A stretch of DNA of 41,327 nucleotides from Candidatus Saccharimonadota bacterium. GTDB lineage: Bacteria > Patescibacteriota > Saccharimonadia > Saccharimonadales > JACOTW01. This document shows, piece after piece, positions 4,378 through 41,327 of this stretch (position 1 is its first letter; every line of letters begins with the position of its first letter). The stretch covers positions 1-41,327 of the forward strand of contig JACOTW010000011.1 of NCBI GenBank assembly GCA_016178135.1, read 5' to 3'. The notes beneath the pieces are model-generated. The model saw only the letters and a list, made by a program, of their open reading frames with translations. It did no database searches and had not been told where the DNA came from. The translations under genes were made by a program, and so were the position numbers.

Positions 4378-4394
4378 GCTCAACTGATCTTTAA

Positions 4395-4502
4395 TCCTAG
4401 GGCCTGACCCTTGGCAGATGAGCGTATTGCGGATTTTTAATTCGTCAGTTTGTTCCAAAGAGTTCCCCTTGGAACACGAATCACAAAATTCTTCCCTGTT
4501 AA
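4395..4502. repeat. REP-like repeat copy R3 (inverted relative to R1)
   Basis: reverse-complement match to R1: GCAGATGAGCGTATTGCGGATTTTTAATTCGTCA...CAAAATTCTTCCCTGTTAA. Confidence 0.75.
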
Positions 4503-4660
4503 CTGGACTTACCCAAAATCGCCCGTTCCCAGGGCGAATCAGCTCGAGCAGATAGTGGCTTGACTGAAGGAGAGGTAGCCTTAGCTACATCGAAAGAAGG
4601 CAGACTGCTATCAGCCGAGATTAGTTGGTCTGGGGATGGGGGAGCTTTGCGTAAGTCCAG
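4503..4660 (+). mobile_element. 158-bp palindromic-end element, copy 1
   Basis: CTGGACTTACCCAAAATCGCCCGTTCCC...GCTTTGCGTAAGTCCAG; same length as copies 2 and 3. Confidence 0.85.
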
Positions 4661-17111: not shown

Positions 17112-17269
17112 CTGGACTTACACAAAATCGTCCGTTCCCAGAGTGAATTATCTCGAGCGAAAACTGTTTTGTCTGAAGGAAAGGTAGCCGTAGCTACATT
17201 GAGAGAAGAAAAACTGTTTGTAGCCGATAGAATTCGATCTGGGGATGTAGGAGTTTTGCGTAAGTCCAG
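17112..17269 (+). mobile_element. 158-bp palindromic-end element, copy 2
   Basis: CTGGACTTACACAAAATCG...GTTTTGCGTAAGTCCAG with TGTA flanking both ends. Confidence 0.9.
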
Positions 17270-18814: not shown

Positions 18815-18891
18815 GGGCCAGTAGCTCAGCTGGTTAGAGCACCTGCCTCTTAAGCAGGGTGTCCGGGGTTCAAGTCCCCGCTGGCCCTCCA
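18815..18891 (+). tRNA. tRNA-Lys(CUU), CCA encoded
   Basis: GGGCCAG/CTGGCCC acceptor, loop CTCTTAA, T-arm CGGGGTTCAAGTCCCCG. Confidence 0.95.
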
Positions 18892-18921: not shown

Positions 18922-18944
18922 AATTGGAATATCTTGCGAGTGCT

Positions 18945-19087
18945 TGAACTCTGGACACGCCAAAAGGGTGTCCGGGTGAGAACTGCCTGGGTGGCAGTTC
19001 GCAAGGAAACCTACTCTTCAAAACTTGTTTTTGAAAGATGTAGTTTCGGGCCTGCCAAAGGTAGGTCAAGTCCCCGCTGGCCCTCCA
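18945..19087 (+). ncRNA. tRNA-mimic structured repeat, copy A
   Basis: GGACAC...GGTGTCCGGG + GAACTGCC/GGCAGTTC + long hairpin + CCTGCCAAAGGTAGG + TCAAGTCCCCGCTGGCCCTCCA (tRNA-Lys 3' end). Confidence 0.7.
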
Positions 19088-19493
19088 AGTTCCCCTCACC
19101 ATATTGATTCATTGTAAATATTTTGTTTAACCTCGGTCGGAGCGACGGATTTTGAGTTCCCGATTCTATTTGTGCGAAATTCGGCGCTTGGTCGAAAAAT
19201 ACACTAAAATAACTAGCCTTTTTGGCCTGATCCATCTGTTCTAGCGCCAGTTCATCCAGGTGTTCCAGGAAATATCGGATGGTTTGCATAACTTTGCGCA
19301 TATCAATTGGCTTCTTGGATGAGGCTTTGGCTTTTCCGGCTCTTAGTTTTTCTATCTGCTCTTCACACTGTTTCACTTTGTCCTCCAGTGTTTTAATTAC
19401 GCTTTCACTACTAACGAGCAGGATCTTTTCACTAGCTTTTCGTAAATCTTTTATGAACGCATTGTAGAAAGACTGCTCATCTTTCGACTCCAT
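19011..19493 (-). CDS. hypothetical coiled-coil protein, weakly like a serine recombinase C-terminus; C-terminus encoded by repeat copy A
   Basis: ORF with coiled-coil KTLEDKVKQCEEQIEKLRAGK; KKASYFSVFFDQAPNFAQIESGTQNP. Confidence 0.45.
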   Translation of the reverse strand: MESKDEQSFYNAFIKDLRKASEKILLVSSESVIKTLEDKVKQCEEQIEKLRAGKAKASSKKPIDMRKVMQTIRYFLEHLDELALEQMDQAKKASYFSVFFDQAPNFAQIESGTQNPSLRPRLNKIFTMNQYGEGNLEGQRGLDLPLAGPKLHLSKTSFEE

Positions 19494-21368: not shown

Positions 21369-21652
21369 ATTTTGTATTAAACTCCCTATATGACCTTAAT
21401 GCAAGCAGCAGCGTTTTGAAATTCAGTTGGTATAGTTGTCATTGTGATTAGCCATAGGTCGGGTTAAACGATTTACTATCTAGCAAATCCGATGTTCGGT
21501 ACCTTATCTTGTGTCGTTCGTAGGGTTCATGCAATACTGTTCTCCAGCGCAAGCATTCATCAAGTAATGGTTTAACTTTTTTAATGCCTGCACCTCCATC
21601 CTCCGTCGCAGAACCTTGTGGTTCAGCTATGGAGGATTTGTGCTTTGTGGGA

Positions 21653-21794
21653 CTTGAACTCTGGACACGCCAAAAGGGTGTCCGGGTGAGAAATGCCGGT
21701 GGCATTTCGCAAGGAAACCTACTGTTGAAAACTTGTTTTCAAAGATGTAGTTTCGGGCCTGCCAAAGGTAGGTCAAGTCCCCGCTGGCCCTCCA
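21653..21794 (+). ncRNA. tRNA-mimic structured repeat, copy B (no adjacent tRNA)
   Basis: same architecture as copy A with changed stems GAAATGCC/GGCATTTC and TTGAAAAC/TTTTCAA; tRNA-Lys 3' end. Confidence 0.7.
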
Positions 21795-21840
21795 ATCTAG
21801 AATCTAGTAGGAACACGGTAACTGAAATGTCGCGGTGTTT

Positions 21841-23541: not shown

Positions 23542-24183
23542 TTATTTTTTGCGCTTCCAGACTTCAAAGTGAAAGGTAATGTCGTTTTCTGTGATCGGCT
23601 CGCCACTACTGGTTCGTTCGAATTTGTCCTCGAACTCGGGGAAAAATTTAGTACACCCGAAATCGCCCTGCAACCGTGTTAGGTACAGTTCATCTGCCAT
23701 ATCAAATGTGCTAGCAAACAACACGGCACCGCCGATGTTCCAAACATCTCCTTGGGTATTCTCTAAACTGGACTTACGCAAAATCGCCCGTTCCCAGGGC
23801 AAATCAGCTCGAGCTGAGAGTGGTTTGACTGAAGGAGAGGTAGCTTTAGCTACATCGAGAGAAGACAGACCGCTATCAGCCGAGATTAGTTGGTCTGGGG
23901 TTGGGGGAGCTTTGGGTAAGTCCAGTAAAAACCGACGGGCATCATAGACTGGTTCAAACCCAGATTTAAGCACTTCGTTTTGCTCATAAGTCGCAACATA
24001 GTTACTAACGCCTGGATATGGCTTAGTTAGTTCTTGGTAGAGACCGTAGCCCATCAGGATTGTTGCTGTCCTCAGTTTGTCGCGGTAATACCTGACGTCA
24101 GAAGGGATTTTGCCCTGCCACGGTATGCCATGGTCGTTGGCTATACCTCTTTTATCGTCTATGGCTGCTATGAATCTGATCAC
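23542..24183 (-). CDS. folA: dihydrofolate reductase with 54-codon in-frame insertion
   Basis: MIRFIAAIDDKRGIANDHGIPWQGKIPSD..., DVWNIGGAVLF; interrupted by 158-bp repeat copy 3. Confidence 0.9.
   Translation of the reverse strand: MIRFIAAIDDKRGIANDHGIPWQGKIPSDVRYYRDKLRTATILMGYGLYQELTKPYPGVSNYVATYEQNEVLKSGFEPVYDARRFLLDLPKAPPTPDQLISADSGLSSLDVAKATSPSVKPLSARADLPWERAILRKSSLENTQGDVWNIGGAVLFASTFDMADELYLTRLQGDFGCTKFFPEFEDKFERTSSGEPITENDITFHFEVWKRKK
23768..23925 (+). mobile_element. 158-bp palindromic-end element, copy 3 (inside folA)
   Basis: CTGGACTTACGCAAAATCGCCC...GCTTTGGGTAAGTCCAG with TAAA on both flanks. Confidence 0.93.
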
Positions 24184-25499: not shown

Positions 25500-25576
25500 G
25501 CCCGCGTAGCTCAGTGGATTAGAGCATCTGTCTTCGGAACAGAGGGTCGGCGGTTCGAATCCGTCCGCGGGTACCA
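25500..25576 (+). tRNA. tRNA-Arg(UCG), CCA encoded
   Basis: GCCCGCG/CGCGGGT acceptor, loop CTTCGGA, T-arm GGCGGTTCGAATCCGTC. Confidence 0.93.
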
Positions 25577-25612: not shown

Positions 25613-25626
25613 GGTAATGTGCTGAG

Positions 25627-25767
25627 TTTGACTGCTGACCCATCAATAGAGGGTCGGTGTGAAACATGCCTGTGGCATGTTGCAAGGAAACCTACTCTTC
25701 AAAACTTGTTTTGAAAGATGTAGTTTCGGGCCTGCCAAAGGTAGGTCGAATCCGTCCGCGGGTACCA
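25627..25767 (+). ncRNA. tRNA-mimic structured repeat, copy C (tRNA-Arg version)
   Basis: GACCC...GGGTCGG + AACATGCC/GGCATGTT + long hairpin + CCTGCCAAAGGTAGG + TCGAATCCGTCCGCGGGTACCA. Confidence 0.75.
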
Positions 25768-25822
25768 ATGAGATTTAATAGTAGTCGTCATAACTGGCGT
25801 CGATTTTTGTTATACTCCCCTT

Positions 25823-31597: not shown

Positions 31598-31682
31598 CAA
31601 ATTACTTACGCTCAAAAATTTGTTATGGAACTTTTTTGGATGGAGCTAATTCGCCATGGGAACGGGGGATTTGTGTTCAGTA
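31598..31682 (-). mobile_element. degenerate/shortened copy 5 of the palindromic-end element
   Basis: plus strand CTTACGCTCAAAAA...TTCGCCATGGGAACGGGGGATTTGTGTTCAG versus copy 4 TTCGCCCTGGGAACGAGGGATTTTGC...CCAG. Confidence 0.5.
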
Positions 31683-33049
31683 CGGCTTTGTAGTCGGACA
31701 AATACTGCCATGGTCCAGCTAAAGTCTGGTTGAGTGGCATAACGGCCCCGTAACCCAACCCTACAATTAACTACATCATATTTTTCCCATAATGTAGCCG
31801 TGGCCGCAAACACTTTTTGATTACAATCCAGCCATTTGCGTGTTAAGCGTTCAGCATCTTTCTCAAAACCATAGCGACTTAAGCCCTCGATAACAACAAG
31901 TTGCAGTGGCGCCCAACCGTTCGGGTAATCCCATTGTTTATGACTTGGTTTCATTTTTACGGTTGTTGCCAGACCGCCAGCATGCTCAAAAGCTTTTAGC
32001 ATTTTCAAGCATTTTCCGGCCTGTTTTTGATCAGCCACACCGCACCATAATGGATAAAAACCAGCTAATGTTTTGAGTTTTTCCAATCTATTAGTTTTTA
32101 GGTTGTAATCATTATAAAATCCAGATTTTTCATCCCAAAAATAATCATTAATCAACTTTTTTCGGCGCTTCATAGCAGCACGCCAGTATAGTTGTTTTGT
32201 TTTGTCGTTCTTATAGACAGCCCATTTTAGAAAATCGCTTTCATACTTATAAATTAAACAATTGAGGTCTACCGGCAAGAGACGAGCATTGCCACTATAA
32301 CGACTGGATAAATCCCAACCCGATTCAAAAACCGCCAATAATTTACCAAAATATTTTGGGTTGTATTGGCTTAATCCGCTCTTGTGGTTATATCGTGGCT
32401 CACTCATCCAAACACGTTCGTATTCTTGCTGTGCGATATTCATCACATAATCCATCCAGGCTACATCAACCCCTCCATGTTCAAAAACCTCAAAGGCCAT
32501 GCTGGTTAGAAACGGCGGCTGGCTACGTCCAACACTAGTCCAACTATTACGGGCAGGAACAAGGCCAAATTTATCAAACAAAAAACACAAATTGTCTATC
32601 ATGTTTTTGGCCAGCTTTACGTGACCATTAGTTACTAGTCCAAGAATAGTAAAATAACTATCCCAGTAAAATTGCGTGCCTGCAAAGTAACCTGGATTGG
32701 GAGCTATAAAATTATGTGGCAACGATACACGACCGATACGCATTATAGACTTACGCAAAACTCCTCCATCCCCAGATCGAATTCTATCGGCTAAAAACGA
32801 TTTTTCTTCTGTCGCTGTAGCTGGTTCGCCCTGGGAACGAGGGATTTTGCATAAATCCAGTATAATATTGCGAATGCCGAACCCGGAATTATCTTGCACG
32901 AGATCATTACTTAACCAATGATTTTCAATATATCTTAATATTTCTTCCGAATTATCATTAATCATACTAAGATTATTTGCCTGATCTATGTCAGTTCTTG
33001 CGGTGTTTGTCTGTGTTTGGCAAAGATTCGGGCAGAGCTTTTGGTTCAC
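31646..33049 (-). CDS. trehalase-like glycoside hydrolase (GH37-type) with in-frame repeat insertion
   Basis: PGYFAGTQFYWDSYFTILGL and QWDYPNGWAPLQ trehalase signatures. Confidence 0.85.
   Translation of the reverse strand: MNQKLCPNLCQTQTNTARTDIDQANNLSMINDNSEEILRYIENHWLSNDLVQDNSGFGIRNIILDLCKIPRSQGEPATATEEKSFLADRIRSGDGGVLRKSIMRIGRVSLPHNFIAPNPGYFAGTQFYWDSYFTILGLVTNGHVKLAKNMIDNLCFLFDKFGLVPARNSWTSVGRSQPPFLTSMAFEVFEHGGVDVAWMDYVMNIAQQEYERVWMSEPRYNHKSGLSQYNPKYFGKLLAVFESGWDLSSRYSGNARLLPVDLNCLIYKYESDFLKWAVYKNDKTKQLYWRAAMKRRKKLINDYFWDEKSGFYNDYNLKTNRLEKLKTLAGFYPLWCGVADQKQAGKCLKMLKAFEHAGGLATTVKMKPSHKQWDYPNGWAPLQLVVIEGLSRYGFEKDAERLTRKWLDCNQKVFAATATLWEKYDVVNCRVGLRGRYATQPDFSWTMAVFVRLQSRTEHKSPVPMAN
32748..32860 (-). 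mobile_element. palindromic-end element, copy 4 (113 bp, internally deleted, inside trehalase-like gene)
   Basis: minus strand CTGGATTTATGCAAAATCCCTCGTTCCCAGGGCGAACC...GTTTTGCGTAAGTC with TATA at both flanks. Confidence 0.88.
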
Positions 33050-41086: not shown

Positions 41087-41188
41087 ACCTAGGAACCGAG
41101 GAACCGAGGAACTGTCCCTTAACAGATGGCGAGGAACCGAGGAACTGTCCCTTCGAGGAACCGAGGAACTGTCCCTTAACAGATGAGG
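41087..41188. repeat. tandem REP-like units
   Basis: CGAGGAACCGAGGAACTGTCCCTT(AACAGATG) repeated three times. Confidence 0.85.
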
Positions 41189-41191
41189 GAA

Positions 41192-41327
41192 TTACAAATT
41201 GGCTAGTTCGTACTTTAGCTCATCTAGCATTTGTTTGTTTTCTTCATAGTCGGCAACGAACTCCAGGTAACTTTGGCGATCATAATCGAATTGGGCAAGC
41301 ACTTTTTGGGTTTGTAGCCACTCCGGC
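41192..41327 (-). CDS. C-terminus of probable REP-associated/IS200-like Y1 transposase (partial)
   Basis: PEWLQTQKVLAQFDYDRQSYLEFVADYEENKQMLDELKYELANL*; typical PEWL..VL..F tail next to REP array. Confidence 0.6.
   Translation of the reverse strand, partial: PEWLQTQKVLAQFDYDRQSYLEFVADYEENKQMLDELKYELANL

Follow-up and report, generated by a model that had tools for sequence, protein, structure and literature searches.

The stretch of DNA analysed here (the window; 41,327 bp, contig C10 of a draft assembly of 799,899 bp in 14 contigs) carries a folA gene, encoding a predicted dihydrofolate reductase (DHFR), into which a palindromic element of 158 bp (CTGGACTTACGCAAAA ... TTTGGGTAAGTCCAG) is inserted between two copies of TAAA (Table 1). 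The folA frame reads through the element without a stop, and the element together with its 4-bp target site duplication (TSD) accounts for 162 bp (158+4), i.e. 54 codons. Folded end to end as RNA, the + strand of the element gives a minimum free energy of -85.6 kcal/mol. An earlier inspection of the window, made from the letters alone (the sequence-only reading), had reported the element, its flanks, this arithmetic and the in-frame position; all of these proved correct, and the extra peptide is the one quoted there plus one residue that finishes codon 54.

The same reading had stated that removal of the element and one TAAA leaves a normal DHFR context. At the level of predicted proteins this empty site is confirmed: in 11 full-length relatives of the DHFR, all belonging to the same order, the alignment continues through the insertion point and precisely the 54 extra residues are missing. 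Both the Pfam DHFR model and the sequences of structurally solved DHFRs align to the two segments flanking the insert, and neither matches inside it. A search for a second DHFR in the genome found none, folA being the sole DHFR detected. An AlphaFold model of the protein, computed without an alignment, was uninformative (pLDDT 33).

Table 1. Element copies, TSDs and host genes in the window
Feature	Position	Strand	Remarks
MITE-like palindrome of 158 bp, inserted in frame in folA	23768..23925	-	reads LDLPKAPPTPDQLISADSGLSSLDVAKATSPSVKPLSARADLPWERAILRKSS in gene orientation
TSD TAAA, left copy	23764..23767		
TSD TAAA, right copy	23926..23929		
folA, dihydrofolate reductase	23542..24183	-	213 aa including insert; DHFR_1 (PF00186) match split around insert
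Second full copy	4503..4660	+	intergenic; flanks TTAA / TAAA
Third full copy	17112..17269	+	intergenic, between response-regulator gene and Pribosyltran-like gene; TSD TGTA on both sides
Internally deleted copy, ~116 bp	~32745..32860	-	length still 2 mod 3 after loss of 42 bp; frame kept, reading ILDLCKIPRSQGEPATATEEKSFLADRIRSGDGGVLRKSI
Trehalase gene (GH37, PF01204)	31646..33049	-	second in-frame host in the window

The four copies counted in the window by the sequence-only reading were recovered only in part as such: three are full-length, and the fourth is the shortened form in the trehalase gene, which keeps the reading frame of its host. No Rfam model matched the element, and at gathering cut-offs the window shows tRNAs only. 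A repeat of ~145 bp is present at 18943-19088, 21651-21795 and 25624-25768, downstream of tRNA-Lys (18815-18891) and tRNA-Arg (25500-25576). It terminates in a copy of the 3' end of the adjacent tRNA (of tRNA-Lys type in the repeats at 18943 and 21651, of tRNA-Arg type in the one at 25624); these repeats look like tRNA-targeted insertions with duplicated tRNA ends. Short REP-like repeats (CTGTCCCTTAACAG-type and GAGGAAC runs) were observed at 102-144, 2142-2241, 4387-4449 and 41097-41214 of the window, and at C3:27633 and C13:24899 of the genome.

Copies, ends and target sites in the source genome

An iterated profile search over 797 kb, nearly the whole genome, revealed ~110 full-length copies and ~110 partial or decayed ones, which together comprise 27 kb (3.4% of the genomic DNA). 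One contig of the draft assembly terminates within a copy (C7:65283). Both ends of the element carry either CTGGACTTACGCAA or CTGGACCTGTCGCA as terminal inverted repeats (TIRs); the second, CTGGACCTGTCGCA, contributes one additional base per arm, generating elements of 159 and 160 bp. The flanks of 97 full-length copies define a 4-bp TSD with the consensus TNNA (TAAA, TATA, TTTA, TCTA and others). Identical 4-bp flanks were found in 55 of the 97, whereas 2000 shuffles gave 12.6 on average and never more than 24. The sequence-only reading had taken the element to be mobile, which the TIRs, the TSD and the more than 100 copies bear out. With 97 full-length copies that have readable flanks and this degree of TSD identity, the pattern is not due to chance. 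As in MITEs generally, the copies have TIRs and a TSD (here TNNA), are short (~158 bp) and numerous, and contain no transposase gene.

The consensus is predicted to form a hairpin of -78 kcal/mol (approximately -86 kcal/mol for the folA copy), with 88.7% pairing versus 27-52% in slid controls. Compensatory changes are not clearly above the slid controls (80 versus up to 73 cells), and we therefore make no claim of selection for the hairpin. A composite form of ~330 bp, in which the two halves of the element are split by ~165 bp at the hairpin tip, was seen in three or more copies, whose flanks resemble TNNA (G000 C1:13263-13593, C4:8544-8874 and C9:6880-7209).

A search for TIR pairs up to 4 kb apart in the source genome, aimed at an autonomous copy, returned host genes only. 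A 777-bp candidate in the CPR2 bacterium described below was rejected, since it turned out to be host DNA, with a short, separate palindrome at its end. Four transposase families were searched, and no transposase with matching TIRs (CTSGACTTACGC ends) was found in the genomes examined. Neither the DDE_Tnp_1 nor the IS1595 domain occurs in the source genome (the latter was present only in G531), and rve is represented there by fragments only, which are not bounded by the TIRs of the element. Y1 transposases were detected in 4 of 4 element-bearing genomes tested; no element matches lie near the two Y1 genes, which are adjoined by other repeats. These two (RAYT-like) genes, located outside the window, are flanked by REP-like repeats similar to those seen within it. 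Y1 enzymes are not expected to generate TSDs.

Copies within protein-coding genes

Copies were assigned to genes by rejoining the flanks without one TSD and asking, with a coding model trained on the genome, whether one coding frame crosses the junction, a procedure which registers broken genes as well as intact ones. By this test, 25 of the 97 full-length copies lie in genes. All but one of these (24/25) are in frame and free of stops (binomial p=6e-11 versus 1/3), and 23 of the 25 are in phase 0, with the codon boundary at CTG GAC TTA CGC. Both orientations are used (14 + and 11 -), and the frame and phase counts are stable across thresholds. Only 38% of the in-gene TNNA sites fall in that phase, so the bias is not a target effect (~3e-8, calculated by hand). 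The value of (length+4) is divisible by 3 in 25/25 gene copies versus 40/72 non-gene copies (Fisher p=1e-5), and the frame-losing variants of 159 and 160 bp are confined to non-coding DNA and never found in genes.

Read in frame 0, the consensus has no stop on either strand; the remaining four frames contain 2, 4, 2 and 2 stops. The frame preservation that the sequence-only reading regarded as built into the length of the element therefore holds, and is complemented by the sharing of one open phase between the strands and by the absence of the 159- and 160-bp variants from genes. Across the genome, copies are often located in CDS and essentially never break the frame; the opposite pattern was absent. 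Stops among private mutations show a weak effect in the expected direction (2 in frame 0 versus 13 in the other frames of gene copies; 7 versus 14 in non-gene copies). Subfamily structure inflates the outcome of a permutation test of frame openness, which was used in a supporting role only.

We also compared profiles of the element peptides with 634 predicted proteins, obtained with a home-made gene finder. The frame-0 peptide was detected in the products of 54 of these genes, decayed copies included: 38 internal, 13 N-terminal, which may be start-site artefacts of the gene finder, and 3 C-terminal. The peptides of the other four frames, used as a control, were found in 5 genes altogether. The frame-competent copies number 25 in genes and 40 outside, while 28% of the sites are in genes and in phase and 27% lie outside genes; as a rough estimate, in-phase insertions in genes may be kept ~60% as often as insertions in non-coding DNA.

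The hosts include genes for DHFR, MurD, RsmA/KsgA, TruB, MnmA, DnaX (identity read from its sequence), PriA and UvrD-type helicases, as well as RluD-type and RsuA-type pseudouridine synthases, a TlyA-type methyltransferase, an M1 aminopeptidase, a ROK kinase, FemAB and others. Their domain matches are interrupted at the insert, and MurD, RsmA and TruB exceed the equivalog cut-offs despite it. Judged by their predicted products, the host genes are not debris. Some hosts carry two copies, all in frame: one full and one shortened in the dnaX gene (G000 C7:19627-21342), and two full ones in a glycosyltransferase gene (G000 C4:23366-24817).

Substitutions among the gene copies within the genome are spread flatly over the codon positions, and their synonymous fraction (0.23) is not raised above that of non-gene copies (0.24/0.30). 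Divergence between families at the three codon positions is likewise flat (0.56/0.50/0.51). These data show that, within the source genome, the inserted peptide is free of amino-acid selection. Its ends always read LDLR...LRKSS, and related families possess a loose FSxGxxPVGxxTxEK centre. No model of NCBIfam and Pfam matched the element peptides at E<=10 and E<=1.

Related families in other genomes

A scan of 85,462 species genomes for the TIR pair yielded a sole match, CPR2 bacterium GW2011_GWC2_39_10. A homologous family of 161-bp elements (161+4=165), with identical 15-bp ends and TNNA flanks, has 28 copies in this genome. Frame 0 of the CPR2 family is open on both strands; only 1-2 of 23 copies lie in genes, one of them plainly keeping the frame of a flavin amine oxidase. 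Within the order, the TIR pair is present in 6 of 247 genomes, the source genome included. G063 contains five copies, mostly of 161 bp, G012 has a 161-bp member, and G531 a single 161-bp copy (TSD TTTA), in frame in a predicted protein with a membrane-like segment. The members in G009 and G048 (157 bp) are decayed and contain stops. A further 161-bp member, open on both strands, was identified in an IMG/VR contig (L182; IMGVR_UViG_3300025582_000056). Searched for by exact match, the core motif was absent from 379 further genomes of the phylum; among plasmids there was a single 37-base match, and phages yielded no match.

The families are ~50% identical inside the ends and align almost without gaps. 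Five of them (G000, G100, G063, G531 and L182) have kept both the dual-open frame 0 and a length of 2 mod 3. Among random palindromes with these TIRs, frame 0 is open on both strands in 2-7%.

Positions 5455-8470 of L182 encode (i) a reverse transcriptase, (ii) a small accessory ORF and (iii) a formylglycine/C-lectin-like variable protein. The 161-bp element lies between these genes, which together look like a diversity-generating retroelement. At another locus (L077; G072:C4 near 14794), we observed a hairpin with different arms (CACGCCTTTC...), whose tip motif TCGATGTAGC..GCTACCTCTCC is common to the 158-bp family, which suggests that a hairpin tip is shared between otherwise different elements.

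Interpretation and comparison with known palindromic elements

Very probably, the element belongs to a newly recognised Patescibacteria/CPR family of non-autonomous DNA transposons (MITEs), is frame- and orientation-neutral in genes and leaves a tolerated linker peptide in the host protein. It inserts at TNNA with duplication of the 4 bp and would be moved by a trans-acting transposase through a 4-bp staggered cut. Element and duplication together amount to a multiple of 3 bp (158+4 or 161+4), and neither strand of the palindrome has a stop in frame 0. Insertion in one of the three phases of a gene, in either orientation, thus adds 54-55 sense codons and leaves the protein otherwise intact, as far as its sequence indicates. 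Out-of-phase insertions, which are missing from the data, are presumably purged by selection on the host gene. The constraints on frame and stops suggest that the inserted peptide is translated and carried along as a linker. In gene-dense genomes, such silence may widen the safe landing space and thereby favour frame-keeping lineages of the element.

Host genes remain unbroken because the element and its target duplication add 54 readable codons in either orientation. With a length of 2 mod 3, the third positions of frame 0 face each other across the strands, and the arms of the palindrome are similar; a sequence open one way thus tends to be open the other way in the same phase, and in-phase landing would be tolerated in both orientations. 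Since ~73% of the TNNA sites lie inside predicted genes, frame neutrality makes insertion survivable over much of the genome.

We lean slightly towards the view that this architecture (palindrome, length of 2 mod 3, 4-bp duplication, dual-open frame 0) has been kept by selection for silence in genes, as a selfish-element adaptation to gene-dense CPR genomes that is conserved across CPR lineages while the peptide drifts freely. It is likely that the element itself has been selected for its frame, although the common descent of the families keeps this short of proof. The open frame could also be an accident of one master copy, the in-frame pattern then arising from host selection alone with none on the element. 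The dual openness of 2-7% of random palindromes, the location of most copies outside genes and the stop-containing 157-bp members of G009 and G048 agree with such an accident. It is nevertheless a rather unlikely, if serious, alternative, as five families with ~50% interior identity are still dual open and 2 mod 3, where neutral drift should have yielded stops.

That the peptide is a domesticated module whose sequence is under selection for a role in binding, localisation or regulation might be supposed from its constant ends, the loose centre shared by related families and its presence in more than 50 genes. The ends, however, are the TIRs used in transposition, the different peptides of the two strands are used about equally (14:11), there is no synonymous excess (0.23 versus 0.24/0.30), and divergence is flat over codon positions both within the genome and between families, which makes this role improbable. 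Removal of the element at some point up to the finished protein (by excision from the RNA, protein splicing or bypass by the ribosome), yielding a normal host protein, would fit the very stable hairpin (consensus -78, folA copy -86 kcal/mol) and hosts that include enzymes for which a 54-aa insert seems costly. Length modulo 3, phase and stops should then be irrelevant, yet all but one of the 25 gene copies keep the frame without a stop, and genes contain none of the 159- and 160-bp variants; the peptide, moreover, matches no protein-splicing family, and we consider removal quite improbable. The assembly is a draft, with a contig end inside a copy (C7:65283), which could point to an artefact or to hosts that are decaying pseudogenes. 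Such an origin is extremely improbable given the conserved, housekeeping nature of the hosts (several of which exceed equivalog cut-offs), the status of folA as the only DHFR found in the genome, and the agreement of the TSDs and the independent CPR2 assembly.

Insertion of a MITE that remains silent in genes invites comparison with the Rickettsia palindromic elements (RPEs). These are described as 105-146 bp long, with in-frame insertions in 19 reading frames, or nearly half of 44 (Ogata 2000, 2002, as presented in PMC2229807 and PMC10969869). According to PMC2229807, the guanylate kinase of R. conorii is translated with its RPE insert and active (Abergel 2006), and the target duplication of RPEs is listed as unknown. 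The title of a further report, cited in PMC2229807 and PMC10969869, refers to protein-coding palindromes of Wolbachia similar to RPE (Ogata 2005). In a 2024 review, the occurrence of in-frame coding palindromes beyond Rickettsia and Wolbachia is conjecture only (PMC10969869), and our literature search found no report on MITEs or coding palindromes in CPR.

The parallel with RPEs drawn in the sequence-only reading is supported by the in-frame insertions in protein genes. Both are short palindromes with many copies in a reduced genome, in frame within conserved protein genes, with approximately a quarter to half of the copies in ORFs. The family described here differs in its phylum, its length (158/161 bp versus 105-146 bp), its clear 4-bp TNNA TSD and its use of both strands in a single phase. 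The suggestion that the two are unrelated in sequence also stands: no homology was seen with the peptide profiles (NCBIfam, Pfam) or in the TIR-pair scan of 85,462 species genomes, in which no Rickettsia matched. The small-genome relatives of the same order and the CPR2 record are Patescibacteria-type; genome size, these relatives and the CPR2 link point to that phylum for the source genome. Because of the lack of a profile or Rickettsia match, the clear TSD and the two strands read in one phase, the family is best interpreted as an RPE-like MITE, apparently analogous but unrelated to RPE.

Other bacterial MITEs (ERIC, Correia/NEMIS, RUP) are mainly intergenic or gene-disrupting, with occasional ORF fusions (PMC2229807, PMC10969869), and RUP has stops in all six frames (PMC2229807). 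They share with the present element TIRs, a short TSD, a hairpin, high copy number and the lack of a transposase gene; in contrast to them, the latter is frame-neutral either way and stays out of genes when its length breaks the frame. The REP/RAYT system resembles it in its palindromic repeats and in the Y1 transposases of the element-bearing genomes tested. REPs, however, are 20-40 bp long (PMC3733652) compared with 158 bp here, and the Y1 genes adjoin other repeats and not the TIRs of the element.

In-frame coding palindromes have so far been seen as a peculiarity of Rickettsia and Wolbachia; the family presented here is unrelated and belongs to a different phylum. It offers a visible insertion mechanism (the TSD), hundreds of copies, natural controls in the form of the 159- and 160-bp variants, and homologous families. 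Two questions thereby become testable: whether selfish DNA can evolve tolerance within genes, and how far essential enzymes can accommodate a random 54-aa insertion. Nearly one in ten predicted proteins of such a genome has an extra transposon-derived segment, which calls for caution, and the family supplies many natural insertion variants of conserved enzymes.
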